A DNA stretch of 64,000 nucleotides from Cryobacterium psychrophilum. Lineage in GTDB: Bacteria; Actinomycetota; Actinomycetes; Actinomycetales; Microbacteriaceae. How positions within the stretch are numbered: position 1 is the stretch's first letter; every line of letters starts with the position of its first letter. The position numbers were made by a program, and so were the translations under genes. The notes below the pieces were generated by a model. The model was not told the origin of the DNA. It saw nothing but the letters and a program-made list of their open reading frames with translations, and ran no database searches. This document shows, in pieces, positions 1,112-15,217 of the stretch. The DNA lies in NCBI RefSeq assembly GCF_004365915.1, contig NZ_SODI01000001.1, positions 372,001-436,000 on the forward strand, written 5' to 3'.

Positions 1112-1486
1112 TTAGTTTCCAGCGACGATCGGGATGCCGGTGGCGTCGGCGGCGCTTTGGATCGCGCCCGCATCGTGAACGTTGCTGAACCCGGCGGACT
1201 CCATGATCGACACGGCCTGGGCCGAGCGGTTGCCCGACTGGCAGTACACGATGTAGTCGCCATCCACCGGATATTCGGCGATCTCCTGCTCGAAAGATCC
1301 CGACTGCAGGTTGACGTTCACGGCCCCGTCGAGGTGCCCCGCGGAGTACTCGCCGGGAGTGCGCACGTCAACGATCACGGTGTTCGCGGCCACTGTTAGG
1401 GGTTCGGGCCCCGCACAGGCGGTGAGGCCGAGGCCGACCACGGCGAGAAAGCTGAGCATCAGGGGCAGGGTACGCAGGCGGCGCAT
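1112..1486 (-). CDS. Rhodanese-like domain lipoprotein
   Basis: A 124-residue single-domain sulfurtransferase predicted to sit on the outer face of the membrane. The N-terminus is a lipoprotein signal (MRRLRTLPLM, hydrophobic core, lipobox LTAC with Cys24). The rest is a rhodanese fold: VIVDVRTPGEYSAGHLDGAVNV, then the active loop YCQSGNRSA with the persulfide-forming Cys82. Rhodaneses move sulfane sulfur between carriers. A CsoR/CstR-type palindrome lies 35 bp upstream of the start, the same palindrome found before the repressor at 5612, so the gene is probably derepressed by persulfide or a related thiol stress. In E. coli the ynj locus carries a periplasmic sulfurtransferase (YnjE), and this protein may fill that role here. 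Family call is firm; physiological substrate unknown. Confidence 0.9.
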   Translation of the reverse strand: MRRLRTLPLMLSFLAVVGLGLTACAGPEPLTVAANTVIVDVRTPGEYSAGHLDGAVNVNLQSGSFEQEIAEYPVDGDYIVYCQSGNRSAQAVSIMESAGFSNVHDAGAIQSAADATGIPIVAGN

Positions 1487-1521
1487 GGCGGGTCTCCTTC
1501 AGAATGGGAATCAGCCCCAGT

Positions 1522-1537
1522 ATACCCATAGGGGTAT
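1522..1537. promoter_or_regulatory. CstR/CsoR-type operator before rhodanese gene
   Basis: Perfect 6-4-6 palindrome ATACCC-ATAG-GGGTAT, 35 bp upstream of the rhodanese start codon. The same arms recur at 5515-5530 before the CsoR-family gene. CsoR-family proteins are known to bind G/C-tract palindromes of this type. Confidence 0.75.
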
Positions 1538-1748
1538 CAGGAGTGTTCGGCTTGTCACTGCGTTGACTGTCCGCGAGTGAAACGGCTGGCCGCGCAGCTC
1601 AGCCGACCCGGCTGCGAAGCACTCCGTGGTGATCTCTTCTCGAAGCCGCAGCCCGCGAACGAGGCGTCGGAGGCGGAAGCGCATTCGGCCGTTCTGTTAA
1701 GACGTGTTCTCGGCAACGGGGCCACCTGACTCGTTGCTGCTCCCCGGC

Positions 1749-3068
1749 TCACTGATCCGGGGAGTCGGGAAGCGGCGGGACGGGATCGGCCTGTCGGGTC
1801 CTGTTGTCGGCGGGGTCACGCTGGCGTCGGCTCGCGAGCAGAAACGGAATCCCGATGAGCTGCACGACACCACCGATCACGAGCGAGGTGCCGTAACCCC
1901 CAAGATCGGCGGCACGGCCCAGCGCCGGTTGGATGAAGACCCCGCCAAGGCTGCCGAACAGCGAGTCGAATGACAGCACGGTGGCGCGTTGCTCCGACGG
2001 GATCATCTCGTTGAGGTAGGCCTGCCGTACCGGTCCGGCAACGGCGAAGACGAAGCCCCAGACCATCAGAAGCGCGATCGCGAACCAGAAGAGGCTGTTC
2101 AGTCCGAGCACGACGAGAACGACCGCGCTGATGACGGATGCCCCAATCACGGCGGTGGTGCGCAGGGCGAACAGCCCGCGGATTCGGGGTGCCAGCATTC
2201 CACCGGCCACCTGGGAGAGCGAGAGAATGGCCGCGGCCAGCCCCGCAACCGAGTACGCCGATGGATCCCCGTAGAGCTCCAACAGATACGGCTGCAGCGC
2301 GTAGAAGGCATAGAAGCCGACCCCCGAAGCGAAGGGAGCTGCGAGCATCACGTAGCGCACCGACCGCCTCTTGAGTCCGTACTCGATCGACTGCGCCAGC
2401 ACGTTCCGCGTCGCCTTCAACGGCCCCGCCGAACGGTCCGGAGTGAAGCCGATATCCTTCATCACAACGGCTGCAAAGACGAATAGGGCGATCAGCACCG
2501 CGGCGCGCAACACGAAGGGCACGCCGAGGTTGGTCACCTGAGCGATCACACCGCCCAGCACCGAACCCGTGAACATGGCTATGCCCGTGACCACGAGCCC
2601 CCGGCCGAACACGGCCTCGAGGCTACCGGTGTACCGGCTGAATGCCAGGGCGTCGACCAGCCACGCTTCCACGGCGCCCGAGAAGAAGGTGAAGCCGAGC
2701 CCGAGCAGCACAGAGACGATTGCCCACCAGACGAACGGCGCATGCCACAGCCACAGCATCCAGTAGAGCCCGGTCGTGACCGAGAGCGTGATCGTGCCGA
2801 GCAGATAGGAGGCCTTTCGTCCGATCGTGTCGGCCACGACACCGGTCGGAATTTCGAAGATGACCATACCCACGGTGAAGAACGCGTTCGCGGCGAACGC
2901 TTCAAAATTGGACAGTCCCGCGTCGAGCAGAAAGAGCATGTTGATGCCCCAGATGAACGACGCCGCGAGCGTATTGCCGAGTAGAAGGGTCAAGTAGATG
3001 CGTTGCACGCGCCTCGCCGCCGGGTTCATGACCCGCGACCGATCAGCGCACACGACTTCGTCACGCAT
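1749..3068 (-). CDS. MFS transporter, 12 membrane segments
   Basis: Major facilitator superfamily permease of about 439 residues. Twelve hydrophobic segments can be followed, and the loop after the second carries the MFS motif A signature (EIPTGVVADTIGRKASYLL). A second copy of the repeat starts near residue 225 (YGLKRRSVRYVMLAAPFASG). The N-terminus is uncertain: ATG at 3068 gives the full ORF, but ATG at 3029 (MNPAARRVQRIYL) starts right before the first membrane helix and is also plausible; neither has a strong Shine-Dalgarno. The C-terminal tail is charged and proline-rich. Substrate cannot be read from sequence; drug or small-metabolite efflux is the usual role of relatives. It stands alone between the rhodanese gene and a long non-coding stretch. 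Confidence 0.85.
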   Translation of the reverse strand: MRDEVVCADRSRVMNPAARRVQRIYLTLLLGNTLAASFIWGINMLFLLDAGLSNFEAFAANAFFTVGMVIFEIPTGVVADTIGRKASYLLGTITLSVTTGLYWMLWLWHAPFVWWAIVSVLLGLGFTFFSGAVEAWLVDALAFSRYTGSLEAVFGRGLVVTGIAMFTGSVLGGVIAQVTNLGVPFVLRAAVLIALFVFAAVVMKDIGFTPDRSAGPLKATRNVLAQSIEYGLKRRSVRYVMLAAPFASGVGFYAFYALQPYLLELYGDPSAYSVAGLAAAILSLSQVAGGMLAPRIRGLFALRTTAVIGASVISAVVLVVLGLNSLFWFAIALLMVWGFVFAVAGPVRQAYLNEMIPSEQRATVLSFDSLFGSLGGVFIQPALGRAADLGGYGTSLVIGGVVQLIGIPFLLASRRQRDPADNRTRQADPVPPLPDSPDQ

Positions 3069-3721
3069 CAATCATTGACCCGATCTGAGCGGATGGCTAG
3101 ATGTTGCGGGTGAGCAGGCTCTCATTCCTGGAGCGACGATGGCGCCCTCGAAGAGCAGCATCACGGTTCGGCCCGTCGCCGCCGGATCGGGACAGTCGCG
3201 CCGTGCATGCGGGCAATTCGGACATTTCCTGGAGGTTCACACCGCGATCGCCAGCCGCACCGACCCACTGGCCACCAGAGCGGGTGGTCCGCCGGCAGGC
3301 ACATGACGGAAAAGGGAATATAACCGAAAGACGGCATAAATTCCTCGATAGTCAATACTGAGACTCAATCGTTATACGGAAGCCATCCCACTGAGTGCCG
3401 ATTTCACGCCGCCGGCCGCAGCAGCACTCGGTGATTTCACCGTGGGGAGCATGCCCGAAATCCGCGGGATCCTGCGGGTCAGTGCCGTGTTTGCATCAAG
3501 AAGTTCACTTCGAGAATGGGCTTGCGCGCCTGGCCCTGCTGACCGGCGTTTGGGCCCGCGCCGGGCACCGTCAATCGGGCGCAACTGTCGTGGATGCACC
3601 TGTTTCCACGGCTAAATGGGGCTCAACGACGACAACGCAGCGTATTTCTGTGAGACTTGATGCACTGAATCACCCCTACATCGGGCATTCGAACCGGGGA
3701 AACCCACTGGAGAAAAACCCA
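3069..3721. other. Long non-coding stretch upstream of putP
   Basis: About 650 bp with no credible gene. ORFs here are short and of poor composition; the plus-frame ORF that leads into putP is an artefact of an open upstream frame. The part at 3300-3380 is A/T-rich relative to its surroundings and could hold promoters for the divergent MFS gene and putP. I saw no clear operator palindrome. Confidence 0.5.
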
Positions 3722-5227
3722 ATGACGGATCAAACCTTCCAACTTGTAGCAATCATTTTGTATTTAGCCGGCATGGTCGCCATCGGCTGGTTCGCTTTTC
3801 GGCAGACCAACGACCTCGATGACTACATGCTCGCGGGACGTGGCCTGAAGCCGGGCACCGCAGCGCTGAGCGCAGGCGCCTCTGACATGTCCGGCTGGCT
3901 CCTGCTGGGTCTTCCCGGTGCCATCTACGTGTCCGGCCTGGTCGAGGCGTGGATCGCCATCGGCCTGACCATCGGCGCCTGGCTCAACTGGAAGTTCGTT
4001 GCTCCTCGGCTGCGCTCGTACACGCAGGTGTCCAACAACTCGATCACCATTCCGAGCTTCTTCGAGAACCGTCTCAAAGACAACTCGCGCATACTGCGCG
4101 TGGTCTCCGGCGTGATCATCCTGGTTTTCTTCACGTTCTACGTGTCCTCCGGAATGGTCGCTGGCGGCGTGTTCTTTGAGAACTCCTTCGGCTCGACCTT
4201 CCTGGTCGGCATGCTCATCGTTGCCGGAGTCACCCTGCTCTACACACTCTTCGGTGGATTCCTCGGCGCGACCCTCACGGACGTTGCCCAGGGCATCCTG
4301 ATGCTCGTCGCACTGATCGCCGTGCCCCTCGTCGCCCTGAACGCCGCGGGAGGCATCACCGCAACGCTCGAATCCATCCGTGAAGTTGATCCGACCCGAC
4401 TCTCCCTCACCGCCGGCGGTTCCATCCTCAGCGTCATCTCCGCCGCAGCGTGGGGTCTGGGCTACGTCGGCCAGCCGCACATCCTCGTGCGTTTCATGGC
4501 GATGCGAACCCCGCAGGACGCCAGAGCCGGACGCCGCATCGGCATCGGCTGGATGGTCATCACCGCCATCGGCGCCGTCAGCACCGCTCTCATCGGCATC
4601 GCGTACTTCCAGCAGCACCCCGAGGTAACCCTGCAGAACCCCGAGACGGTGTTCCTGCTGCTCTCGCAGATTCTGTTCCACCCGTTCATCGCCGGTCTGG
4701 TGCTGGCTGCCGTGCTGGCCGCCGTCATGAGCACCATCTCGTCGCAGCTCATTGTCTGCTCCTCCGCCCTGGTTGAGGATCTGTACAAGATTGTCGGCAA
4801 GAAGGATGCCACGCCGAAGCAGATGATCATGCTCGGCCGCCTCGGCGTGCTGGTTGTGGCGCTCGTTGCCGGACTCATCGCGCTCAACCGCGATTCCACC
4901 ATCCTTGAGCTGGTCGGGTTTGCCTGGGCCGGTTTCGGTGCCGCGTTCGGCCCCGTCGTTCTTCTCTCGCTGTACTGGAAGAAGCTCTCCACCTGGGGCG
5001 CACTCGCCTCCATGGTCACCGGCGCCGTCGTGGTCTTCATCTGGGGCAACTCTGCGCTGAGCGACAGCATGTACGAGATCGTGCCCGGCTTCGCTGCCAG
5101 CCTGCTGGTCGCCGTGGTGGTCTCCCTGGCCACCTACAAGCCGTCTGCGGAAATCGAAATCGAATTCGATACCGCTGTGGAGCAGTCCCACCCCTCCTAC
5201 AAGGCTCCCAAGCCGGCCAAGGTCTAG
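3722..5227 (+). CDS. putP: Sodium/proline symporter
   Basis: Sodium:solute symporter of the SSS family, 501 residues, importing L-proline with Na+. The start is ATG 3722 (MTDQTFQLVAIILYLAGMVAIG), preceded by a GGAG Shine-Dalgarno at about 3710; the open frame extends upstream but that extension is not membrane-like. Family landmarks seen are YMLAGRGLKPGTAALSAGASDMSGWLLLGLPG near residue 35-65, the GQPHILVRFMA segment after TM6, and IAGLVLAAVLAAVMSTISSQLIVCSSALVEDLY, the PutP-typical TM8 region. Thirteen membrane segments are expected. The length matches PutP. It is followed by a strong hairpin, so it is a single-gene unit lying between the two CstR-operator genes without an operator of its own that I can see. 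Confidence 0.92.
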   Translation: MTDQTFQLVAIILYLAGMVAIGWFAFRQTNDLDDYMLAGRGLKPGTAALSAGASDMSGWLLLGLPGAIYVSGLVEAWIAIGLTIGAWLNWKFVAPRLRSYTQVSNNSITIPSFFENRLKDNSRILRVVSGVIILVFFTFYVSSGMVAGGVFFENSFGSTFLVGMLIVAGVTLLYTLFGGFLGATLTDVAQGILMLVALIAVPLVALNAAGGITATLESIREVDPTRLSLTAGGSILSVISAAAWGLGYVGQPHILVRFMAMRTPQDARAGRRIGIGWMVITAIGAVSTALIGIAYFQQHPEVTLQNPETVFLLLSQILFHPFIAGLVLAAVLAAVMSTISSQLIVCSSALVEDLYKIVGKKDATPKQMIMLGRLGVLVVALVAGLIALNRDSTILELVGFAWAGFGAAFGPVVLLSLYWKKLSTWGALASMVTGAVVVFIWGNSALSDSMYEIVPGFAASLLVAVVVSLATYKPSAEIEIEFDTAVEQSHPSYKAPKPAKV

Positions 5228-5250
5228 CACCGCCAGCACCACGCATCACC

Positions 5251-5305
5251 AACAACACAGGCACTTGCCCCGGCCATCACGGCCGCGGTAAGTGCCTGTG
5301 TTGTT
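5251..5305 (+). terminator. Long hairpin terminator after putP
   Basis: Nineteen-base arms (AACAACACAGGCACTT then GCC, and the complement) pair with one mismatch around a short GC-rich loop, 24 bp after the putP stop. There is no long T-run, but position and stem strength fit an intrinsic terminator. Confidence 0.8.
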
Positions 5306-5468
5306 TGCGGTGTGACTCAGGGGCAGGTGCAGCGCTGTGCCTGCGGAACATCGGCCATCGCACTGTCGACGTGCTCACCGCACCCCGCCCCGGTGATCTT
5401 GCTACAACGATTGCATCGGACTGCACTGCACATGGGAGCTCCTTCATCGTTTGCTGGAAGTACTCACT

Positions 5469-5530
5469 ATCCCCTCGGGGGTATCGCAAATATGACTCTT
5501 AGCTGTCACAATTTATACCCTGTAGGGTAT
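5469..5530. promoter_or_regulatory. Two CstR/CsoR-type operators before the repressor gene
   Basis: Site one at 5469-5484 reads ATCCCC-TCGG-GGGTAT (one arm mismatch). Site two at 5515-5530 reads ATACCC-TGTA-GGGTAT (perfect 6-4-6). Site two matches the operator at 1522-1537 in arm sequence and spacer length. The pair lies 80-140 bp upstream of the CsoR-family start codon, implying autoregulation. Confidence 0.75.
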
Positions 5531-5611
5531 CCTGTTGTTGTACGACCATCCAGGCGGGCCCTGGGCGGCGCCTCACAATCCCATCGGTCGAGAAGAAAAA
5601 GGTGGCCTGAA

Positions 5612-5893
5612 ATGACTTCGCAAGATACGAAATCCGATGACATGCGCAAGATAGTGAACCGGCTCAAGCGCGCGCAGGGTCAACTCGCTGCGGTGATTGC
5701 TGCCGTCGAATCCGGTGCGGATTGCCGCCCGGTGGTTACGCAGCTCGCCGCCGTGTCCAGCGCGATTGATCGCGCCGGTTTCACGATCATTTCCTCGGCC
5801 ATGAAAGAATGCCTTGTCGATAATGCCGACACCGGCGACAAGAAGCCACTCGACGTCAAGGAACTTGAGAAGCTGTTCCTCTCGCTGGCCTGA
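5612..5893 (+). CDS. CsoR-family repressor, CstR-like (persulfide type)
   Basis: A 93-residue all-helical DUF156 protein. The start ATG 5612 follows a GGTGG-type ribosome site; the longer open frame upstream crosses the operators and is not coding. The N-terminus MRKIVNRLKRAQGQLAAV is the family DNA-binding helix. The two conserved cysteines are present at residues 38 and 67, but the copper-ligand histidine four residues before the second cysteine is alanine (Ala63). Copper CsoR needs Cys-His-Cys; proteins keeping only the two cysteines include CstR, which senses sulfane sulfur by forming Cys-S(n)-Cys links. With a rhodanese gene sharing its operator, a persulfide sensor is the best reading. 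Copper or formaldehyde (FrmR) sensing is less likely because the metal or aldehyde ligands are missing. Confidence 0.85.
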   Translation: MTSQDTKSDDMRKIVNRLKRAQGQLAAVIAAVESGADCRPVVTQLAAVSSAIDRAGFTIISSAMKECLVDNADTGDKKPLDVKELEKLFLSLA

Positions 5894-5931
5894 ACCGGCT
5901 CTGGTCCCGGCCAGACCGAGCAGGTCAGCGG

Positions 5932-6567
5932 TTACGGGATCGTGGCCGCCACCGCTCGAATGTGTCCGCCGCTGAGTGACATTGAGCGCACGTCCACGCC
6001 CTCGCGTTCGATGACGGTCCATGGGCGAGCGTCGAGGTCGGCACCGCCGACGGCGGCAGCCAGGCGCGCGAGAGGCGAAAACACCCGATGGATGCCCGTG
6101 GGCAATTGCATGTCGACGATACCGGCGCGGCCGCCGGGCCGCAGGAGCTCACACATCCGATCCCACGCCGGATGCCAGTCATGGAAAACGCTCATCGCAT
6201 AGCTTGAGAACACGGCGTCGACGTGCCGTTCCCCCGTCGGCAGCTCGCTGGCGACCTGCGCAGGGGCGAACGTGGTGGCATCCGCCTCGAACAGGCGCAC
6301 GGTGCTCCACCGGTTCGATTCCACTCGATTCCGAGCCATTCGCAGCATCGCCGGACTGCGATCGAGAGCGATGACGGTTCCGCTCGGCCCTACGGCATCA
6401 ACGAGAAGGGCGAGGTTCAGCCCGGTGCCACATCCCAAATCCAGGACCGTATCGCCCCGGCGCAGACCGAGGAGCGTCACTCCGGCCTCACGTCCGGCCC
6501 GATAAACGAACCGCTCTCCCGAGAGCGCATCGTAGAAGCTGGCAGCCGTTTCGTAGACGTTCGCCAT
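5932..6567 (-). CDS. Class I SAM-dependent methyltransferase
   Basis: A 211-residue Rossmann-fold methyltransferase. The start is taken at ATG 6567 (MANVYETAASFYDALSGE), since the upstream codons are arginine-rich and unlike the family. Motif I is DTVLDLGCGTGLNLALLV, motif II ends VIALDRSPAMLRMAR, and the post-I to IV region is DAVFSSYAMSVFHDW followed by LLRPGGRAGIVDMQLP. This layout matches small-molecule or quinone/lipid methyltransferases of the UbiE type; the acceptor cannot be told. It lies back-to-back with the FAD oxidoreductase at 6693 and about 40 bp from the end of the CstR-like gene, inside the ynj-like gene set. Confidence 0.85.
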   Translation of the reverse strand: MANVYETAASFYDALSGERFVYRAGREAGVTLLGLRRGDTVLDLGCGTGLNLALLVDAVGPSGTVIALDRSPAMLRMARNRVESNRWSTVRLFEADATTFAPAQVASELPTGERHVDAVFSSYAMSVFHDWHPAWDRMCELLRPGGRAGIVDMQLPTGIHRVFSPLARLAAAVGGADLDARPWTVIEREGVDVRSMSLSGGHIRAVAATIP

Positions 6568-6692
6568 GGTCCAGACCCGGCCTTTCCTCCCCCTCAGCCT
6601 AACCACCGGCGCTGCCGTTCACCTCCCGTCGACGAACGTCAGCGCCGGGACCTCGGCGGCACGAACTCCGGCGACCGCCTACGCTCGCAATC

Positions 6693-8126
6693 ATGGACAA
6701 AACGAACGAATGGGACCTCGTCGTCATCGGCGGTGGATCGGCCGGGCTCGTGGCCAGCCGCACCGCCGCGAGTTTTGGAGCGAGAGCACTCCTGATCGAA
6801 GACGATCGCCTCGGCGGGGATTGCCTGTGGACCGGATGCATCCCGTCCAAGTCGCTCATCGCGGCCGCGGACGCCGCCATGACGGCCCGGTCTTCGGCGC
6901 ATCTCGGCGTGACGGCTGGAGACGTCGTCGTGGACTTCGCCCGGGTGATGACTCACGTGCATGACGCCAGGAACGAAATTGCCCCGATTGATTCCGCAGA
7001 GTCGCTGGAGAGAGACGACATCGACGTTCTGCTCGGGAAGGCGCGATTCACCGGGCCCAATACCGTCGACGTGAACGGCCGTGAGGTGCGTTTTCGCCAG
7101 GCACTGATTGCCACCGGCGCGTCCCCCGTGCTGCCTGAGATATCCGGAATCGTCGACGTGGACGTTCTGACCAGTGCAACGTTCTGGGACCTGCGAACAC
7201 TTCCGGAGCGCCTCGTGGTGCTCGGCGGCGGAGCGATCGGTTGTGAAATCGCGCAGGCCATGGCCCGCCTGGGATCGACCGTGACGCTTGTGCACCGCGG
7301 CGCACGGCTCCTGCCCAAGGAGGACGAACGGGCCAGCGCCATCGTCGAGGCGGCCCTCGTCGCCGACGGCGTCGACGTGCGCACCAGTCGCACCGTCACC
7401 TCCGTCACGTCGACCGACCGTCTCGCCGGAACATTCACCCTCAGCGATGGCAGCATCCTGCACTTCGACCGCGTCCTCGCGGCTCTCGGCCGCCGGTCAA
7501 ACTCCGTCGGACTTGACCTCGACCGTGTCGGGGTGCGTCGTGACGCACGCGGAAACGTTGTCGTCGATTCACTCCTCCGCACCTCCAACCCCCGCATCTG
7601 GGCCGCGGGCGATGTCACTGGGCTGCCGCAGTTCACGCACACCGCGGGGGTCAACGCGAGCGTGGCCGCAACCAACGCGATTCTCGGCCTGACCCGCCGG
7701 GTGGACACCACGGCGATCCCCCGAGTCACGTTCACTCACCCGGAAGTGGGCGCCGTTGGCCTGCAATTCGCCGATGTGGGCACCACAGGCCACCGAGTCG
7801 TCACCCGTGATCATGCCCACGTTGACCGCGCTGTCACGGAGGCGCGACAAGACGGGTACACCCAGCTGATCGTCGACAAGCGTGGCCGCGTCCTCGGGGG
7901 AACCGTCGTGGGCCCCCGGGCCGGTGAAACCCTCGGCGAGATCTCCCTCGCAGTGAAGAACCGGCTCAGCACGAGCGACATCGCCGGGACGACACATGCC
8001 TACCCGACGTACAACGACGGTCTCTGGAACGTGGCCCTGGCCGACGTTCGCGACCGGCTCGGTTCAGGCCTCATGTTGAGGGTCACGCGCACCCTCCGGC
8101 AACTGCGCAACGCTCGACTGAACTGA
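6693..8126 (+). CDS. Pyridine nucleotide-disulfide oxidoreductase (MerA/Lpd-like)
   Basis: A 477-residue class I flavoprotein disulfide reductase. The FAD motif VVIGGGSAGLVASR is at residue 10; the redox disulfide GGDCLWTGCIPSKS uses Cys44 and Cys49; the NAD(P) motif VVLGGGAIGCEIAQAMARLG is near 173; the second FAD motif IWAAGDVTG is near 305. The C-terminal dimerisation domain starts near 345. The usual C-terminal catalytic HxHPT..E pair is altered: the motif reads HAYPTYNDGLWNVA. There is no paired-cysteine tail as in mercuric reductase and no N-terminal HMA domain. It is therefore neither a standard lipoamide dehydrogenase nor MerA. Relatives of this kind often sit beside TVP38/TMEM64 genes, as here. 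Substrate unknown. Confidence 0.88.
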   Translation: MDKTNEWDLVVIGGGSAGLVASRTAASFGARALLIEDDRLGGDCLWTGCIPSKSLIAAADAAMTARSSAHLGVTAGDVVVDFARVMTHVHDARNEIAPIDSAESLERDDIDVLLGKARFTGPNTVDVNGREVRFRQALIATGASPVLPEISGIVDVDVLTSATFWDLRTLPERLVVLGGGAIGCEIAQAMARLGSTVTLVHRGARLLPKEDERASAIVEAALVADGVDVRTSRTVTSVTSTDRLAGTFTLSDGSILHFDRVLAALGRRSNSVGLDLDRVGVRRDARGNVVVDSLLRTSNPRIWAAGDVTGLPQFTHTAGVNASVAATNAILGLTRRVDTTAIPRVTFTHPEVGAVGLQFADVGTTGHRVVTRDHAHVDRAVTEARQDGYTQLIVDKRGRVLGGTVVGPRAGETLGEISLAVKNRLSTSDIAGTTHAYPTYNDGLWNVALADVRDRLGSGLMLRVTRTLRQLRNARLN

Positions 8127-8144
8127 CCGGCACGGGGCGGTCAG
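8123..8144. terminator. Hairpin between convergent genes
   Basis: Perfect 7-base arms CTGACCG and CGGTCAG around an 8-base loop, overlapping the stop codon of the oxidoreductase and ending just inside the convergent phosphatidyltransferase gene. It could end transcription from both sides. Confidence 0.5.
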
Positions 8145-8782
8145 CGCAGCGCCCGGTACCCCACGATGATCCGTTGGATCGCGCTGATGCCCACCCATCC
8201 GGCCCAGGCGAGCGCGATCTGCCAGGCGAAGAAGGGAAGGATCAGCCACAGACTGTGCACGACGATCGTCTCCCCGCCCTCAGCGATACGGCCGAAAAAC
8301 GAGAGGGAGCGTCCATCGTCGATCTGCCGGTTCGTGCGTTCAGCGATCGAAGAGAACGCCAGGAACGCGGCCCCGTTCACGTAGTAGGCCACCAGCACGA
8401 GCACGAACGGCCACCACGGTGCGTTGAAGGCTGCCGTGGCCCCGATCCCCACCCCGAAAACGGTGAACCCGTACACGGTGAAGTCTGCGACGATGTCGAG
8501 GAATCCGCCGGCCTCACTGTCCGGGGCCCCCGAACCGACGCCATCCCCCCGCTCCCGGCGCAGTCGGGCCAGTGTGCCGTCGAGCCCATCGAGCACTCGA
8601 GACACCAGCCACAGGGCGAGTGACCACCACCAGAGCTGCGTTGCCGCCGCGGCGGCGCTGCCCAGGCCGAGAAACAGACCGGCGATCGTCAGCCGGTTGG
8701 GCGTGACCCAGGGAAGGTCAACGGTCACGGCCACGGCGCGCAGCGGGGCGTTGAGTGCGCGCCGCAGGGAGGAATCAAACAT
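8141..8782 (-). CDS. CDP-alcohol phosphatidyltransferase family protein (YnjF-like)
   Basis: A 213-residue integral membrane protein of the family that joins a CDP-linked donor to an alcohol. The catalytic signature is present but stretched: DGTLAR at residues 70-75, then a Gly/Asp-rich insertion (RRERGDGVGSGAPDSEAG), then GFLDIVADF carrying the last two aspartates. Standard spacing between AR and the next Gly is 8; here it is longer. Five to six membrane helices surround it. The start overlaps the stop of the TVP38 gene by 8 bp (ATGTTTGA), so the two are translationally coupled. E. coli YnjF is a comparable uncharacterised member beside an ABC system and TVP38 genes. Alcohol and product are unknown. 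Confidence 0.85.
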   Translation of the reverse strand: MFDSSLRRALNAPLRAVAVTVDLPWVTPNRLTIAGLFLGLGSAAAAATQLWWWSLALWLVSRVLDGLDGTLARLRRERGDGVGSGAPDSEAGGFLDIVADFTVYGFTVFGVGIGATAAFNAPWWPFVLVLVAYYVNGAAFLAFSSIAERTNRQIDDGRSLSFFGRIAEGGETIVVHSLWLILPFFAWQIALAWAGWVGISAIQRIIVGYRALR

Positions 8783-9506
8783 CGCGTTCGTCTTCTGACG
8801 CTGCCGAAGTATCCGCTGGCCGCCCGTCCTCGGTCGCAGATCGCGCTCGGGTTTGTCGCCGCGCGCGGTTTCCGAATATGAAGCCCAGCAGGGTCAGCCC
8901 GCCGAGAGCTGCCAGCGCGATCCACAACTGCCATCCGGGTTCAAGACTGTAGGCGCCCACCGCGACATACGCGAGAGTGCCCGGGAGGATTCCGAGGATC
9001 GTGCCGAGCGCGTAGTCCCGGCGCCGCACCGCGGTCAATCCGGCAGCGTAGTTGATGGCGGTGAAGGGCAGCACGGGCATGAGCCTGACTGAGATAACCG
9101 CGGCAAGTCCTCGGCGTTGCAGGAGCTCATCCACGCGGGCGACCCGGGCGCCCGTGAACCGTTCGACCGCTTCCCGACCCAGAAAGCGCCCGATCGTGAA
9201 GGCGAGCGTGGCGCCGAGGAGGGCGCCGAGGTAGACCAGAACGACCCCGGTGCCGAAGCCCCAGATCACTCCGGCGGCGATGCTGATCACACTTTTCGGA
9301 ACGGGCGCCAGCGTGAGCAAGCCGTAGCCAAGCCCGAACCCGATCATTCCGACCAACCCGGCGGAACCGGCCGTGGCACGCACCTCGTCGACGCTCGGCA
9401 CCGGGACCGTACTCCCGACGATGACCACGACCACGATGAACACGACGAGCACGGCGAGTCTCCACCGCGGTCGTCGACGACCACGGACGGAGACCGTACC
9501 GCTCAC
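8775..9506 (-). CDS. TVP38/TMEM64 family membrane protein (YdjX/YdjZ-like)
   Basis: A 243-residue DedA/VTT-superfamily membrane protein. After an arginine-rich N-terminus comes a TM segment (LAVLVVFIVVVVIVGSTV), then the VTT core: YLGALLGATLAFTIGRFLGREAVERF near 95-120, and VISVRLMPVLPFTAINYAAG near 140-160 with the conserved Arg and Pro, followed by LGILPGTLAYVAVGAY. Relatives are proposed lipid scramblases or transport-related proteins. It is the first gene of a two-gene operon with the phosphatidyltransferase and diverges from the ABC importer genes across a 127-bp promoter region. The pairing with an FAD disulfide reductase and a YnjB-type ABC importer mirrors other bacterial loci. Confidence 0.88.
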   Translation of the reverse strand: MSGTVSVRGRRRPRWRLAVLVVFIVVVVIVGSTVPVPSVDEVRATAGSAGLVGMIGFGLGYGLLTLAPVPKSVISIAAGVIWGFGTGVVLVYLGALLGATLAFTIGRFLGREAVERFTGARVARVDELLQRRGLAAVISVRLMPVLPFTAINYAAGLTAVRRRDYALGTILGILPGTLAYVAVGAYSLEPGWQLWIALAALGGLTLLGFIFGNRARRQTRARSATEDGRPADTSAASEDERDV

Positions 9507-9633
9507 CTGGTTCTCCCCAATGTCATATAAGCCTCTTCCGCGGTTTACCCTAGTCGAACAGGATCAATGGTCCGCTCCGCCGCACGCCAACCGGTCCACC
9601 CCGAAGCTGTAGTGCCAAAAGGAAACCACACCG

Positions 9634-10929
9634 ATGAAACGCGCCCCCTCCTGGTTCCGTCGCCCGGCTCCCCGCGGGGTTCTCGGTGCTCGCGCAACGC
9701 GTGCGGGCAGGCTCGTGGCCGTCGGCACGGCCCTGGCGTTGACCCTCGGTGCGTGCGCCGCGCCCGCGCCGGACGGCGCCCGCAGCAGCTTCACCAGCTG
9801 GGATGACGTCGTCTCCGCCGCGCAGGGACAGACCGTCAAGTTGTGGATGTATGGCGGCGACGCGCAGGGCAATGCCTACGTCGACGACGTGCTCGCCCCC
9901 GCTGTGGCCGCTCAGGGCGTAACGCTCCAGCGGGTGCCGATAGCCGATACCAAGGATGCGCTCAACCGGGTGCTCTCTGAGCTTCAGGCCGGACGAACCC
10001 AGGATGGAACGGTCGATCTGGTGTGGTTGAACGGCAATAATTTCCGCACGGGGAAGGAAGCCGGGGCATGGCTGTGTGACTGGACGACGCTGATGCCCAA
10101 CCTGGCTCTGACAGCACCCGACGATCCACTCCTCACCCACGATTTCGGCACCCCGGTAGAGGGCTGCGAGGCACCATGGAGCAAGGCGCAATTTACCTTC
10201 GTCTACAACTCCGGCGTCATCGCCGACCCGCCGACCACGCTGGACGGAATCCTCGCGTGGGCCGAGGCGCATCCGGGTCGCTTCACCTACCCGGCACCGC
10301 CGGATTTCACCGGCTCCGTCTTCACCCGTGAGGTTCTCTACAGCGTCTCGGGCGGATACGACAATGTTCCGGCCGCGTTCGACCAGAGCTCGTTCGACAC
10401 CTTGACGCCCGCGCTTTTCACGAGATTGACAGAGCTGGCGCCATCGCTCTGGCGCGACGGAAGCACGTACCCGGCCAATGAAAAGGAGCTGAACCAGCTC
10501 TACGCGGACCGTCAGATCGATATGACCATGACCTACGGCCCCGCCACTCTCACCACCCTGGTGAACGACGGGACTTACCCGCCCGGCACCACGGTGCTCA
10601 CCCGGGAGGAGGGGACCGTGGGCAACGCGAGTTTTCTCGGCCTCCCCGCCAATGCCGGTTCCACCGCCGGAGCCATGGTCGTCGCCAACGTCGCCCTCTC
10701 CGCCGAGCAGCAGCTCGCGAAAGCCGACCCCCGGACCTGGGGCCAGTTCACCGTGCTCGACCGGGGCCTGCTCGCGGCGACCGACAGGGCCGCGTTCGAC
10801 GCGCTGCCCTTCTCGCCCGTCGTGCCGTCCTACGACGTGTTGTCGAAGAATGCGAACCCTGAGTTGGCGGCCGCGTGGGTCCCCGCGCTCGACGACGGCT
10901 GGCGCACCTCCGTGCTCTCCGGCCGGTAG
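9634..10929 (+). CDS. ABC importer substrate-binding lipoprotein (YnjB-like)
   Basis: A 431-residue extracellular solute-binding protein. The N-terminus is a long basic lipoprotein signal ending LTLGAC with Cys41. The mature part opens SFTSWDDVVSAAQGQTVKLW followed by MYGGDAQGNAYVDDVLAP, then DGTVDLVWLNGNNFRTGKEAG, wording very close to what I recall of the YnjB family (E. coli YnjB), which has been annotated as thiamine- or iron-like without proof. It starts a four-gene plus-strand run with two permeases and an ATPase, 18 bp ahead of the first permease. The ligand is unknown. YnjB-like assignment rests on remembered family sequence and the ynjB-C-D gene order. Confidence 0.88.
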   Translation: MKRAPSWFRRPAPRGVLGARATRAGRLVAVGTALALTLGACAAPAPDGARSSFTSWDDVVSAAQGQTVKLWMYGGDAQGNAYVDDVLAPAVAAQGVTLQRVPIADTKDALNRVLSELQAGRTQDGTVDLVWLNGNNFRTGKEAGAWLCDWTTLMPNLALTAPDDPLLTHDFGTPVEGCEAPWSKAQFTFVYNSGVIADPPTTLDGILAWAEAHPGRFTYPAPPDFTGSVFTREVLYSVSGGYDNVPAAFDQSSFDTLTPALFTRLTELAPSLWRDGSTYPANEKELNQLYADRQIDMTMTYGPATLTTLVNDGTYPPGTTVLTREEGTVGNASFLGLPANAGSTAGAMVVANVALSAEQQLAKADPRTWGQFTVLDRGLLAATDRAAFDALPFSPVVPSYDVLSKNANPELAAAWVPALDDGWRTSVLSGR

Positions 10930-10946
10930 TCGGCGAGCCGAGCCCG

Positions 10947-11828
10947 ATGAAGCGGATGCCGAATGCCCGCCAGAACACGACGACCGCCGCGGACCGTCGC
11001 AACTGGGCCACCCTGCTGGTGCTGCCCGCGCTGATTCCGGCCGTGTTCGTTGTCGTCGGCGGGGTCGGGGCCGCGGCCCTGCAGAGCCTGGGCCTCATGC
11101 CGTTGGCCGGTCCCGTCCGGCTCAGCGTCGACGCGTACACCGGTCAGTCCGGTGACCTGATCCGCGCGCTCGGACTCTCCCTGGCGCTGGCGGTCGCATC
11201 CACCGTGATTGCCGCGGTCGTCGGGGTGGGCACGGCGCTGCTGATCGTCGGCGGTCGGCGGTGCGGCCGGATCGTGGCCCTCACCAGCGCCGCGACCGTG
11301 ACCGTCCCGCATCTGGTCGGGGCCGCAGCGGTCGGGCTTCTCCTGGCCGATTCGGGCGTGCTCGCCCGCGTGTTCGGTGTGCCGGCTGAGCTGTGGCCGT
11401 CGCTCGTCGGCGGGCCCTGGTGGGTGGCCGTGGTCGCGGAATACGCGTGGAAGGAGTCGGCGTTCATCGGGCTCGTCGTAGCCGGCACGCTACTCACCCG
11501 GGTGGCCCGTTTCGATGAGGCGGCCGCGATGCTGGGCGCCGGGCGGTGGAACCGGTTTCGGTTTGTGATGCTGCCCCTCGCGTTGCCGGCGCTGGCCATT
11601 TCGTCGACGATCGCGTTTGTCTACACGCTGGGTTCCTACGAAGTGGCGTGGCTGCTCGGGCGCACCTACCCCGAACCGCTCGCGGTCATGGCCCTGCGCC
11701 TTTTCAATTCCGTGACGCTCACGGCTCGTCCCGAAGCTGCGGCGGCCGGTGTGCTCACGGCTCTGGTCTCGTTCCTGATCGTCGGGCTCTGCTTCTGGGC
11801 ACTGCGCAGAACGGCGGTATGGCGATGA
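10947..11828 (+). CDS. ABC importer permease, first half (YnjC N-half-like)
   Basis: A 293-residue binding-protein-dependent permease. The start is ATG 10947, which clears the stop of the binding-protein gene; the open frame extends back into that gene. Six membrane segments are visible, and the EAA loop reads EAAAMLGAGRWNRFRFVMLPLALPALAIS near 190. In E. coli YnjC both permease halves are one polypeptide of about 511 residues; here the halves are separate genes joined by an ATGA stop/start overlap at 11825-11828. The protein is expected to form a heterodimer with the next gene product in the membrane. Confidence 0.85.
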   Translation: MKRMPNARQNTTTAADRRNWATLLVLPALIPAVFVVVGGVGAAALQSLGLMPLAGPVRLSVDAYTGQSGDLIRALGLSLALAVASTVIAAVVGVGTALLIVGGRRCGRIVALTSAATVTVPHLVGAAAVGLLLADSGVLARVFGVPAELWPSLVGGPWWVAVVAEYAWKESAFIGLVVAGTLLTRVARFDEAAAMLGAGRWNRFRFVMLPLALPALAISSTIAFVYTLGSYEVAWLLGRTYPEPLAVMALRLFNSVTLTARPEAAAAGVLTALVSFLIVGLCFWALRRTAVWR

Positions 11829-12742
11829 AGCCCCCGGCCCCGGTCTCCACCGCCGACATACTCGCCCGCCCAGTCGCACGGATCCGGCTGCCCGGTGACC
11901 CCGGCAGCACGCTGACGCGGTCCCGCGCATCCGGCCGAACCGTGCGTATTCTCAGCACAATGCTGGTGGCCGGCTGGTTCCTGCTTCCGTTCGCCCCGCT
12001 CGGGCTTTGGGCCTTCGCGAACGACTGGTCGTTTCCCGCTGTCCTGCCCACCGAGTGGGGTTTCGAGGGGCTGACCAGCGGCATCCGGCAGGGCGCACTG
12101 CCTGCCCTGGGGCACTCGCTCACGCTCAGCCTGCTCGTGGCAGCCATCGCGACCCCGCTCGGGGCCATGGGTGCCCGGGCGCTGACCTTCGGCACCGTGC
12201 GATGGCCGCGAGCGGTGAGCCTGGCCCTGCTCGCACCGATCGCGCTGCCGCCTTTCGCTGCGGTAATGGGGCTGAACGTCATTCTTCTCCGCGCCTATGT
12301 TCCTCCCACGGCCGGGCTCCTGCTGGTGTTGGTGGTCATGGCCATCCCCTACACGACCTTCACGATGCGGGTCGCCTACGCCGCCCACGACATTCGCTAT
12401 GAGGAGGAGGCCCGCACGCTGGGCGCCTCCCGGTGGAACGTGCTCTGGCGCATTCATCTGCCGCTCGTGGCTCCCGCCCTGGCGCGCGCCGCCTTCCTGG
12501 CCTTTCTGGTGGGGTGGAGCGACTACGTGGTGACCATCGTGGTCGGCGGCGGCCAGATCGTCACGTTGCCACTGGTGACCGCGTCGATGGCCGCGGGAAT
12601 CGGAAACGATGCCACGGTCGCCGTGCTGTCGCTGTCGGCCATCGTGCCGCCCCTGATCCTGCTCGCGCTGGCCGGGCTCACCGGGCGACGCCCCGGCACA
12701 AACACGAGAACAGCGGATAGCTACAGAGGAGAGCAAGAATGA
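11825..12742 (+). CDS. ABC importer permease, second half (YnjC C-half-like)
   Basis: A 305-residue permease. The ATG at 11825 overlaps the preceding TGA; ATG 11819 is an in-frame alternative. The first membrane helix is ILSTMLVAGWFLLPFAPLGLWAF, and the EAA loop is EEEARTLGASRWNVLWRIHLPLVAPALARAAF near residue 195. Further hydrophobic segments include LALLAPIALPPFAAVMGLNV and LLLVLVVMAIPYTTF. The gene ends with TGA at 12740-12742, overlapping the ATG of the ATPase gene (12739), so both permeases and the ATPase are translationally coupled. Confidence 0.85.
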   Translation: MKPPAPVSTADILARPVARIRLPGDPGSTLTRSRASGRTVRILSTMLVAGWFLLPFAPLGLWAFANDWSFPAVLPTEWGFEGLTSGIRQGALPALGHSLTLSLLVAAIATPLGAMGARALTFGTVRWPRAVSLALLAPIALPPFAAVMGLNVILLRAYVPPTAGLLLVLVVMAIPYTTFTMRVAYAAHDIRYEEEARTLGASRWNVLWRIHLPLVAPALARAAFLAFLVGWSDYVVTIVVGGGQIVTLPLVTASMAAGIGNDATVAVLSLSAIVPPLILLALAGLTGRRPGTNTRTADSYRGEQE

Positions 12743-13791
12743 GTGCCGGTGTGTTGCTTCACGAGGTATCGAAGTCGTTCGGGGCGGCGCGAACGCCAGC
12801 GTTGACCGGGGTCACGCTCGCCGTGGCGGACGGGTCCTGCACGGCGATTCTCGGGCCGAGCGGTTCGGGCAAGAGCACCATCCTCCGGGTGATCGCGGGC
12901 CTCGACGAGGTCAGCGGCGGCACCGTGCACGTGGACGGGGTCGATGTTGCCGGGGTCCCGTCGGAGCAGCGCGGCATCGGCTTGGTGTTCCAGCGCCCGT
13001 TGCTCTTCCCGCACCTGAGCGTGCTGGACAACGTCGCCTTCTCCCATCGGGTGGGCGGCGCGAGCCGGGCCGGCTCCCGCCGCCATGCCCAGCACTACCT
13101 CGATCTCGTGCAGCTGGGTGGCTTCGGCGGCCGGCCCATCCAGGCGCTCTCCGGCGGGCAGGAGCAACGCGTCGCCATCGCCCGCGCCCTGGCCGCGGCG
13201 CCGCGCGTGCTCCTCCTCGACGAACCGTTCAGCGCCCTGGATCCTGCGCTGCGGGAGGACATGCACCTGCTGCTCGACGACGTTCGCAGCGCCCTGTCCC
13301 CCACCATCATCCTGGTCACCCATGACCGCGAAGAGGCCGCCGCCGTCGCCGACCGCATCGCGGTCATCCACAACGGCGCGCTCCTCCAGCACGACACCGT
13401 GGATCGCATCTACCACCGACCGGCATCCACTCGGGTGTCCCGTCTGATGGGCGGGCTCAACGAGATTCCCGGCCACGTACACGGCGCAATGCACGTCTCC
13501 CCCCTCGGCCAGGTCCCGGTGTCGCCGGGCACGCCTGAGGGCCCCGGCATTCTCGTCATCCGCCACGAGGCCATTGAGGTCTCCCGCTGCACCGACAACG
13601 AGCCATCCGCCTCGGGTGTCGTGGGGCACGTCTCGCGGGTGCGTCAGTTCGGGCCACGCCGCATGGTGACCGTGACCTTCGGCGACGGCAGCGAGTTGTT
13701 CGCGGCGCTCCCACCGGGCGACGGGATGTACGACGGATGCCGAGTGGTGCTTACCCTGCCGACCGAGGCCGTGTCTGTCGTACCCCGGTAA
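12739..13791 (+). CDS. ABC importer ATP-binding protein (YnjD-like)
   Basis: A 350-residue ABC ATPase. Walker A is GPSGSGKST near residue 38, the Q-loop is GLVFQRPLLFPHLSVL, the signature is ALSGGQEQRVAIARALA, Walker B is RVLLLDEPFSALD, and the switch histidine is in LVTHDREEAA. After residue 240 a C-terminal extension (GHVSRVRQFGPRRMVTVTFGDGSELFAAL) resembles the TOBE-like regulatory domain of sugar, iron or thiamine importers, which E. coli YnjD (217 residues) lacks. It is the last gene of the importer operon. Its 3' end overlaps the convergent radical SAM gene by 41 bp, so the two transcripts are antisense there. Confidence 0.9.
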   Translation: MSAGVLLHEVSKSFGAARTPALTGVTLAVADGSCTAILGPSGSGKSTILRVIAGLDEVSGGTVHVDGVDVAGVPSEQRGIGLVFQRPLLFPHLSVLDNVAFSHRVGGASRAGSRRHAQHYLDLVQLGGFGGRPIQALSGGQEQRVAIARALAAAPRVLLLDEPFSALDPALREDMHLLLDDVRSALSPTIILVTHDREEAAAVADRIAVIHNGALLQHDTVDRIYHRPASTRVSRLMGGLNEIPGHVHGAMHVSPLGQVPVSPGTPEGPGILVIRHEAIEVSRCTDNEPSASGVVGHVSRVRQFGPRRMVTVTFGDGSELFAALPPGDGMYDGCRVVLTLPTEAVSVVPR

Positions 13792-15217
13792 GCCCGCTGG
13801 GCCGGGACACGATGCTCTCGGCCGTTCCGACGATCGGCAGCAGTTTTCGAAGGCCGATGTTCTCGATCGGGTCGAGCACCGAGTGTTGCACGCACGCCGG
13901 AACGAGTCGGTCGTCGCCCGGGTGGCTCATCGCGTACATACAGGCGCCGAGGCGTTCCTGCGTCTCGATCGTCTTCGCGTCGTCGCCGACGACTCCGCGC
14001 TGTATCAGGTCCCAGGCCGGCGCCACATCGACAGCGTCCATGAAGCTGTGCACCACGAACGTCTTGAATCCGAGTCTCCCGGCCCTGGCGGCCCGAAGAA
14101 TTCCCCGGGCGCCGCCGGCCCGGCGCAGCACGCGCCCCAGCAGCCCGAGCAGCGGCGGGATGTCGCCCGGGTGCGCGGCGAGGGCGCGCACGATCTTGAC
14201 GGTCAGGATGCGCACGGGAACATCGCCGAAGATCATCCCGCCGAAGTGGTCGAGAAAACGGTCCCGCGCGGCAAGGTCCCTGGGTTCGTCCGGGTCGAGC
14301 AGCGGCGCGAACACGTCGCCCGCCCGCAGCCCGACGGTGGTTCGGTTGCACCGCGGGTCACCGAATTGGGTGGCCTGCCAGGGCAGCTTCTGCCCCGCGC
14401 CCTCTTCAATGCGCTCCCAGACCGCGTCAACGGTGACGTCGTCGAAGTCTTCCTTCCACCGACGGTCGTCGCCGATGAATGCTGCCGGCTGGAACGACAT
14501 CATGTCGTAGGGCATCTCGAGTACATCCCGGGTGACGGCGCTGACCTCTCCCACGTTCGACGGGGTGACGGTCATATTGTGTGCCAGGTACGAGTTCACG
14601 CCGTGGTCGCGCTTGAGGTCAATGAACATCCGCGCGAACTTGTCGCGGAATGGATTCAACGCGGCCTCCGAGTACGGACGAACCGCACCGCGGCGACCGC
14701 GCATCAGAGAATCGAAGTGAGCGGCGAAGGAGACCTTGTCGAATCGGGGCTTCCCGTGCTCGTCAAGCACTACATCGAGCAGATACTGGTAGTCGAAATC
14801 ACCGTGGGTCATCGACATCGGTTCGCGCCCGTTCGCACGCATGGCGAGCAGCGCCGCCGCATGGTCCGCCGCGGGGAGCAGACTGACTTCGCCGCCAATG
14901 AGCTGCGCGTGCGCGCGGGGGCCGCGAATCCGGCGGAGGTACTCCATCTGCTCGGTGACACCGGCGACGGTGTGATTGCCATCGATACGCACCTTGTTGG
15001 CATCCGCCGCGTGATAGCAGGGCGAACAGGTCAGGTCGCATTTGGGGAAGACCCCGTGGGTGCCCTCGCAGCCGATCGCGCACCGGCCGAGCAATTGGTT
15101 GTCCGTTTTGGTGTGCTCGGGCAACTCCGCCCAGCGTTTGTCGAGTGCCACCCGAGATTCCGGGTGAATCGGTCGCGTCTCCAACTCGAAGGCCCGAAGG
15201 GCACCTGCGATCGTCAT
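13751..15217 (-). CDS. Radical SAM enzyme of unknown function
   Basis: A 488-residue radical SAM protein. The [4Fe-4S] motif CxxxCxxC is CDLTCSPC with Cys60, Cys64 and Cys67; Cys46 and Cys50 just before it are further possible metal ligands (RCAIGCEGTHG). The GGE motif appears as AQLIGGEVSLLP near residue 108. A large C-terminal region of about 300 residues has no motif I recognise but keeps scattered Cys and His (ACVQHSVLDP near the end). Gene context ties it to the YnjB-C-D importer: it converges on and overlaps the ATPase gene. Family assignment is firm; reaction unknown. Confidence 0.85.
   Translation of the reverse strand: MTIAGALRAFELETRPIHPESRVALDKRWAELPEHTKTDNQLLGRCAIGCEGTHGVFPKCDLTCSPCYHAADANKVRIDGNHTVAGVTEQMEYLRRIRGPRAHAQLIGGEVSLLPAADHAAALLAMRANGREPMSMTHGDFDYQYLLDVVLDEHGKPRFDKVSFAAHFDSLMRGRRGAVRPYSEAALNPFRDKFARMFIDLKRDHGVNSYLAHNMTVTPSNVGEVSAVTRDVLEMPYDMMSFQPAAFIGDDRRWKEDFDDVTVDAVWERIEEGAGQKLPWQATQFGDPRCNRTTVGLRAGDVFAPLLDPDEPRDLAARDRFLDHFGGMIFGDVPVRILTVKIVRALAAHPGDIPPLLGLLGRVLRRAGGARGILRAARAGRLGFKTFVVHSFMDAVDVAPAWDLIQRGVVGDDAKTIETQERLGACMYAMSHPGDDRLVPACVQHSVLDPIENIGLRKLLPIVGTAESIVSRPSGLTGVRQTRPRSAG

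Follow-up and report, generated by a model that had tools for sequence, protein, structure and literature searches.

A conserved YnjBCD-YnjF-TVP38 cassette of Cryobacterium psychrophilum and its possible role in phospholipid modification

Which genes around a YnjB-like binding protein of Cryobacterium psychrophilum belong together, and what might they do? We addressed this question for a window of 64,000 nucleotides (contig NZ_SODI01000001.1, positions 372,001 to 436,000), the whole stretch of DNA that was analyzed. A sequence-only reading had proposed a relative of the E. coli ydjXYZ-ynjABCDEF genes in it, enlarged by further enzymes and perhaps acting on a sulfur- or selenium-containing compound. 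Open reading frames were called, their products were identified with Pfam and NCBIfam models, related loci were compared, and two proteins were folded. The window carries a cassette of nine neighboring genes (5932-15217), narrower than first described. By sequence comparison, it is shared by several actinobacterial families and partly by other bacteria, including E. coli. The cassette is real and conserved and, as far as the searched literature goes, uncharacterized.

Gene content and order

The cassette begins with a gene for an S-adenosylmethionine (SAM)-dependent methyltransferase (Methyltransf_25/UbiE-like; 5932..6606, minus strand; an internal ATG near 6567 is the probable start), followed by a flavin adenine dinucleotide (FAD) disulfide oxidoreductase (PRK06370/MerA-like; 6693..8126, plus), both assigned by family models. 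Next come a cytidine diphosphate (CDP)-alcohol phosphatidyltransferase of the YnjF type (8141..8782, minus; family models and alignment) and a TVP38/TMEM64 membrane protein with a VTT domain (8775..9506, minus; Pfam and alignment). Beyond a divergent intergenic region (9507..9633, assigned to no strand) lie the genes for a YnjB-family substrate-binding protein with a lipobox-like LGAC (9634..10929, plus; NCBIfam NF008633), for two permeases and for a YnjD-like ATP-binding cassette (ABC) ATPase of 350 amino acids with a C-terminal TOBE_2 domain (12739..13791, plus). The permeases ynjC1 (10947..11828, plus) and ynjC2 (11819..12742, plus) are counterparts of the N- and C-terminal halves of YnjC; they and the ATPase were assigned by family models and alignment. 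The last gene encodes a radical SAM protein with a predicted Tes-like fold (13751..15217, minus; motif and structure model). The individual annotations of the sequence-only reading were thus largely borne out, including those of the binding protein, the split permease and the ATPase.

As had also been described, several genes are coupled or overlap. tvp38 and cdpPT share 8 nucleotides (nt) at the phosphatidyltransferase start, ynjC1 and ynjC2 share 10 nt, and ynjC2 and ynjD share 4 nt; ynjD and the convergent radical SAM gene overlap tail to tail by 41 nt. In the divergent region, a TACCCTA- or TACCCATAG-like box was read by eye upstream of ynjB, and the same box precedes ynjB in relatives (e.g. 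L009, L010, L011, L013, L014, L015, L017, L018, L033, and L034). Read on the minus strand (TAGGGT), it could be the -10 element of the tvp38-cdpPT unit.

Distribution and linkage in actinobacteria

Scanning genome contigs for YnjB yielded 29 loci. YnjB loci occur in Cryobacterium, Marisediminicola, Microbacterium, Rhodococcus, Hoyosella, and Lolliginicoccus, in some metagenome-assembled genomes (MAGs), and further in Modestobacter, Geodermatophilus, Blastococcus, and Promicromonospora. Together with seven loci from six more genomes, 36 loci were compared, the window not being counted. The recurring order is methyltransferase (minus), reductase (plus), phosphatidyltransferase (minus), TVP38 (minus), ynjB, ynjC1, ynjC2, and ynjD (all plus), and radical SAM gene (minus). 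At fixed bit thresholds, ynjB was matched in all 36 loci, each permease gene in 35, and the reductase, the phosphatidyltransferase, and ynjD in 34 each; the radical SAM gene followed with 27, TVP38 with 22, and the methyltransferase, an accessory gene, with 15. Some of the gaps are contig ends (L012, L020, and L035). No TVP38 gene turned up in the loci of Modestobacter, Geodermatophilus, and Blastococcus. This recurrence, together with the counterparts in E. coli, upholds the earlier idea of a conserved uptake-and-modification module.

Among 296 genomes of the class (E 1e-20), the radical SAM protein was found in five and YnjB in six, all five being among the six, and all six radical SAM copies sit 0.8-4.8 kb from a YnjB. 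Leaving the window's own genome aside, the four genomes with the radical SAM protein all fall among the five with YnjB out of 295 (chance probability 1.6e-8, the true value being less extreme because two of the four share one family). A failure to co-occur in other actinobacteria had been named beforehand as the outcome that would speak against the module; since linkage is beyond chance, the module stands on this point.

Nor has rearrangement broken the clustering: in four loci (L058, L060, L061, and L062), either the reductase gene or that of the radical SAM protein has moved and still lies in or near the cluster. One genome (G142) holds two copies of the cassette in different arrangement (L057 and L058), and both include a radical SAM gene of their own. 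Distance correlations between the cassette gene families were high (0.84-0.93, 25 loci) and were not used as proof, since they largely reflect shared species history. Within Cryobacterium, a strong YnjB match was present in one of 25 genomes, that of the window, with weak matches in three others; the cassette is therefore sporadic.

Flanking genes

Two neighbors that had been counted as parts of the module, a lipoprotein with a rhodanese domain (1112-1486, minus) and a CstR-like repressor with a CsoR-family domain (5312-5893, plus), were confirmed at the level of these domains by family model or alignment. They lie less than 5 kb apart, and neither was found with the cassette elsewhere (0 of the 36 loci by tblastn at 50 bits, some loci being cut short). 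Both were thus rejected as members, which sets the limits of the cassette at 5932-15217 and makes the first 4.8 kb a stretch of non-recurring neighbors. The repressor lacks the copper-site histidine at its usual place. The surrounding MFS, PutP, and liv genes were likewise rejected, having shown no recurrence with the cassette in the related loci compared.

Importer, transferase, TVP38, and accessory enzymes

YnjB scored far above the NF008633 cut-off (437 versus 203 bits), and two permease domains and one ATPase, as expected of an importer of this family, are encoded next to it. PF01066 enzymes join an alcohol to a CDP-activated partner. The catalytic motif D..DG..AR..G...D...D is intact in the cassette's phosphatidyltransferase, with a longer spacer after AR. 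The VTT domain of TVP38 reached 101.8 bits (Pfam cut-off 33.9). The available text of PMC10127716 regards TVP38 proteins of COG0398 as putative phospholipid flippases; where they are fused to another protein, this is most commonly the domain pair that is seen in the cassette's reductase.

The reductase had been called non-standard. Near its C-terminus it does carry HxYPT, in the place where HPT with a catalytic histidine stands in lipoamide dehydrogenase and glutathione reductase, but its CxxxxC redox pair is present. Mercuric reductase was rejected as its identity: the score stayed at 379 bits (MerA cut-off 454), and the C-terminal cysteine pair of MerA is missing, cysteines occurring only at positions 44, 49, and 184 of 477. 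For the methyltransferase, which has cysteines only at 59 and 152, arsenite methyltransferase was rejected (57 bits, cut-off 263).

The radical SAM protein

The radical SAM label holds by motif, structure model, and aligned relatives, although the window protein alone falls below the PF04055 cut-off (E 0.033; 14.8 versus 29.5 bits). All 25 aligned members match PF04055 at E <= 0.1 (best 3e-7), and CX3CX2C occurs in 23 of 23 reading frames, the window's included. The invariant cysteines are those of this motif (60, 64, and 67) as well as C50, C290, C426, and C442. The model has a barrel-type fold; its confidence is low over residues 48-82 and 446-488.

The best fold match of the model is Tes/GDGT-MAS (7TOL, 7TOM), with a core and a C-terminal cluster domain of the same overall predicted fold. 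Shared with Tes are CX3CX2C and conserved C-terminal cysteines with FMDA and GRLVPAC-type motifs; model and alignment thus show a Tes-like predicted fold and cysteine layout. The position of the labile Met439 of Tes appears to be that of the invariant His390 in the window family (alignment read by eye). As described in the available part of PMC9433317, Tes binds lipid tails in a hydrophobic tunnel, is unspecific in its binding of head groups, and makes carbon-carbon bonds via a carbon-sulfur intermediate. The window protein remains far under the cut-off of the Tes model (13.9 versus 450 bits), and the same is true for TrsS (NF045646, a radical SAM (seleno)protein; 21.6 bits, cut-off 490), which 24 of the 25 members match weakly (best 9.5e-7). 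Unlike the selenoprotein TrsS, the window protein has a reading frame without an internal stop.

The alignment of Tes/TrsS relatives excludes L094, an eighth Tes/TrsS-like locus. Downstream of the Tes/TrsS-like gene of L087 and L088 we noted a methyltransferase-looking reading frame with an N-terminal CC, a pair that recalls the radical SAM and methyltransferase pairing of the cassette.

Relatives beyond actinobacteria

A search of plasmid-record proteins gave 112 records with a YnjB-like match. From 80 rows of these (40 best, 40 spread), 19 regions were picked for variety, not at random. The phosphatidyltransferase adjoins or lies near YnjB in 15 of the 19 (14 annotated, one by tblastn). Those without it come from two Deinococcus, one Marinovum, where the match is of 34% and the context a different one, and one Sinorhizobium, whose region is cut at the record end. 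TVP38 was annotated or matched in ten regions, six of the ten being fusions with a reductase (three by alignment, three by annotation only). Such TVP38-FAD oxidoreductase fusions (PF09335 with PF07992/PF02852), found in Pseudoalteromonas, Paracoccus, and enteric plasmid copies and recorded in the available text of PMC10127716, join the same two protein types that are encoded by separate genes in the window. Two permease genes are annotated also in the Metabacillus, Ilyobacter, Cetobacterium, and Deinococcus copies, and the fused YnjC was therefore treated as variable, not defining.

No plasmid record matched the radical SAM protein, and among the 120 listed of 2541 scored relatives, the names shown were actinobacterial except for one Burkholderiaceae-labelled MAG. 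It therefore looks like an actinobacterial addition to a cross-phylum core which, judging from sequence, comprises importer, phosphatidyltransferase, TVP38, and flavin reductase.

Some copies have neighborhoods of their own. On an IncF-type conjugative E. coli plasmid (L042, 8683-15982), a ynj-like operon with a TVP38-reductase fusion, a SelD-N-terminal-type oxidoreductase, YnjBCD, and a phosphatidyltransferase stands beside DUF2282-DUF692-DoxX genes; near-identical YnjB matches occur in many enteric plasmid records. A Klebsiella plasmid record (L074) shows the order ast-xthA-TVP38-ynj-gdhA of chromosomal type, and in Ilyobacter (L065, 6062-7609) rhodanese domains are fused to a TVP38 domain inside the YnjBCD cluster.

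Possible function

We consider the making of a modified membrane phospholipid the most likely role of the cassette, at a probability of roughly 0.4. YnjB with YnjC1, YnjC2, and YnjD would import a small polar alcohol or head-group precursor, which the YnjF-type transferase would attach to a CDP-activated lipid. The Tes-like radical SAM enzyme may then abstract a hydrogen from the lipid tail and form a new bond there with the help of its C-terminal Fe-S site. The methyltransferase, where present, may methylate the product; the flavin disulfide reductase would provide reducing power from NAD(P)H, and TVP38 would shift the lipid between leaflets. Head-group import, lipid transfer, modification, and movement across the membrane are the simplest joint reading of these genes. 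We infer every substrate, the product, and the order of the steps, as well as what the reductase and the methyltransferase do.

Several observations weigh against a lipid role. The putative ligand of YnjB is a weak point, as polyamine, sugar, iron, and dinucleotide binders all have its modelled fold. Such a route offers the MerA-like reductase no obvious place, and metal-uptake genes lie near some relatives. Among the low-confidence parts of the radical SAM model is the C-terminal segment 446-488. The rubredoxin of Tes (C-X2-C-X20-C-X2-H; PMC9433317, available part) and its N-terminal cluster cysteines are absent from the window protein, with no conserved cysteine before C50. Tes was absent among the 50 Foldseek matches listed, and Tes and TrsS are about equally near and not distinguishable as the nearest family; we know of no function for TrsS. 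Comparing the full radical SAM alignment with the Tes/TrsS relatives by profile gave 31.8% probability (E 5e-4). A global alignment of the C-terminal halves was misregistered (score 6.2, exceeded by at least 10 of 60 shuffles, which reached up to 11.2), and since the cluster region was chosen for a local test once the motif was known, the significance of that test is optimistic. Finally, of the 33 loci that extend beyond ynjD, six show no radical SAM gene (L016, L017, L018, L034, L060, and L062), two of them (L060 and L062) with no match genome-wide; the gene is thus not essential to the core.

Of the other explanations, a sulfur or selenium route, as first suggested, is the least improbable, though unlikely. 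The importer would bring in such a compound, and the reductase, radical SAM protein, and methyltransferase would process it. Rhodaneses do occur near relatives (three in Ilyobacter, one of them fused to TVP38, and ynjE in E. coli), as do SelD-N-terminal-type oxidoreductases in Paracoccus (333 bits), Pseudooceanicola (369 bits), and, below the cut-off of 310, the Escherichia plasmid (287 bits), and the TrsS matches fit as well. However, the flanking sulfur-linked genes of the window were not found in the 36 related actinobacterial loci, the radical SAM protein comes nearest in fold to a lipid enzyme, and the phosphatidyltransferase and TVP38 would be left without a clear role. selD exceeded its cut-off in one of seven cassette genomes, not the window's, and that genome has no radical SAM match; the five others besides the window's have sub-threshold matches in each. 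With the best selD match of the window's genome at 54.7 bits (cut-off 125), selenium utilization was rejected; selenite stress, apart from selenium use, stays among the candidates. The sulfur or selenium proposal is thus weakened, and we tentatively place a lipid role above it.

Metal handling, also unlikely and ranked next, would have YnjBCD import or scavenge a metal or chelate, the MerA-like flavoenzyme reduce the metal, and the lipid enzymes remodel the membrane; the cysteine content and sub-threshold MerA score of the reductase speak against it, and the nearby metal genes vary between loci. Least probable of all appears plain uptake of a polyamine-, thiamine-, or aminoethylphosphonate-like nutrient, the other genes being mere neighbors. 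In its modelled fold, YnjB does resemble many binding proteins, including PotD/PotF, STM0429, and those for thiamine, and the ATPase scores best, below cut-off, with the PotA and PhnT2 models. Mere neighbors, however, would hardly persist through rearrangement, keep all six radical SAM copies within 5 kb of YnjB, or, like the phosphatidyltransferase, accompany YnjB across phyla.

Taken together, the cross-phylum core and its lipid-enzyme-like radical SAM extension in actinobacteria amount to a concrete lipid hypothesis, testable by intact-lipid mass spectrometry. In the available text of PMC8941075 and PMC11868695, Tes relatives occur in many bacteria with function unproven. The cassette bears on their role, which the consulted parts of PMC9433317 and PMC8941075 leave open.

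Comparison with the E. coli ydjXYZ-ynjABCDEF genes

The likeness to E. coli was confirmed pairwise, with identities of 36% for YnjB, 30% for YnjF, 39% for YdjZ, 29% for YdjX, and 38% for YnjD; E. coli YnjC has local matches to both window permeases, one per half. These counterparts stand side by side in E. coli, where YnjBCD, YnjF, and YdjX/Z are annotated as putative or by domain only, and the FNR regulon lists ydjXYZ-ynjABCD and ynjE (PMC3688515, available text). E. coli YdjY, YnjA, and YnjE had no pairwise match to the window proteins tested. The permease is one fused chain in E. coli and two genes in the window, the ATPase has a TOBE domain and 350 amino acids in the window versus 217 in E. 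coli YnjD, and the window cassette adds the flavin reductase, the radical SAM protein, and the methyltransferase. These comparisons support the view that the cassette is the actinobacterial form of a YnjBCD-YnjF-TVP38 module related to ydjXYZ-ynjABCDEF. A bolder and quite improbable extension is that Actinobacteria of ordinary habitats make cross-linked, membrane-spanning, or carbon-sulfur modified phospholipids with a compact Tes-like radical SAM enzyme and the importer, transferase, and TVP38 scramblase of the cassette; if so, the ynj genes of E. coli would represent this lipid route reduced to its core.

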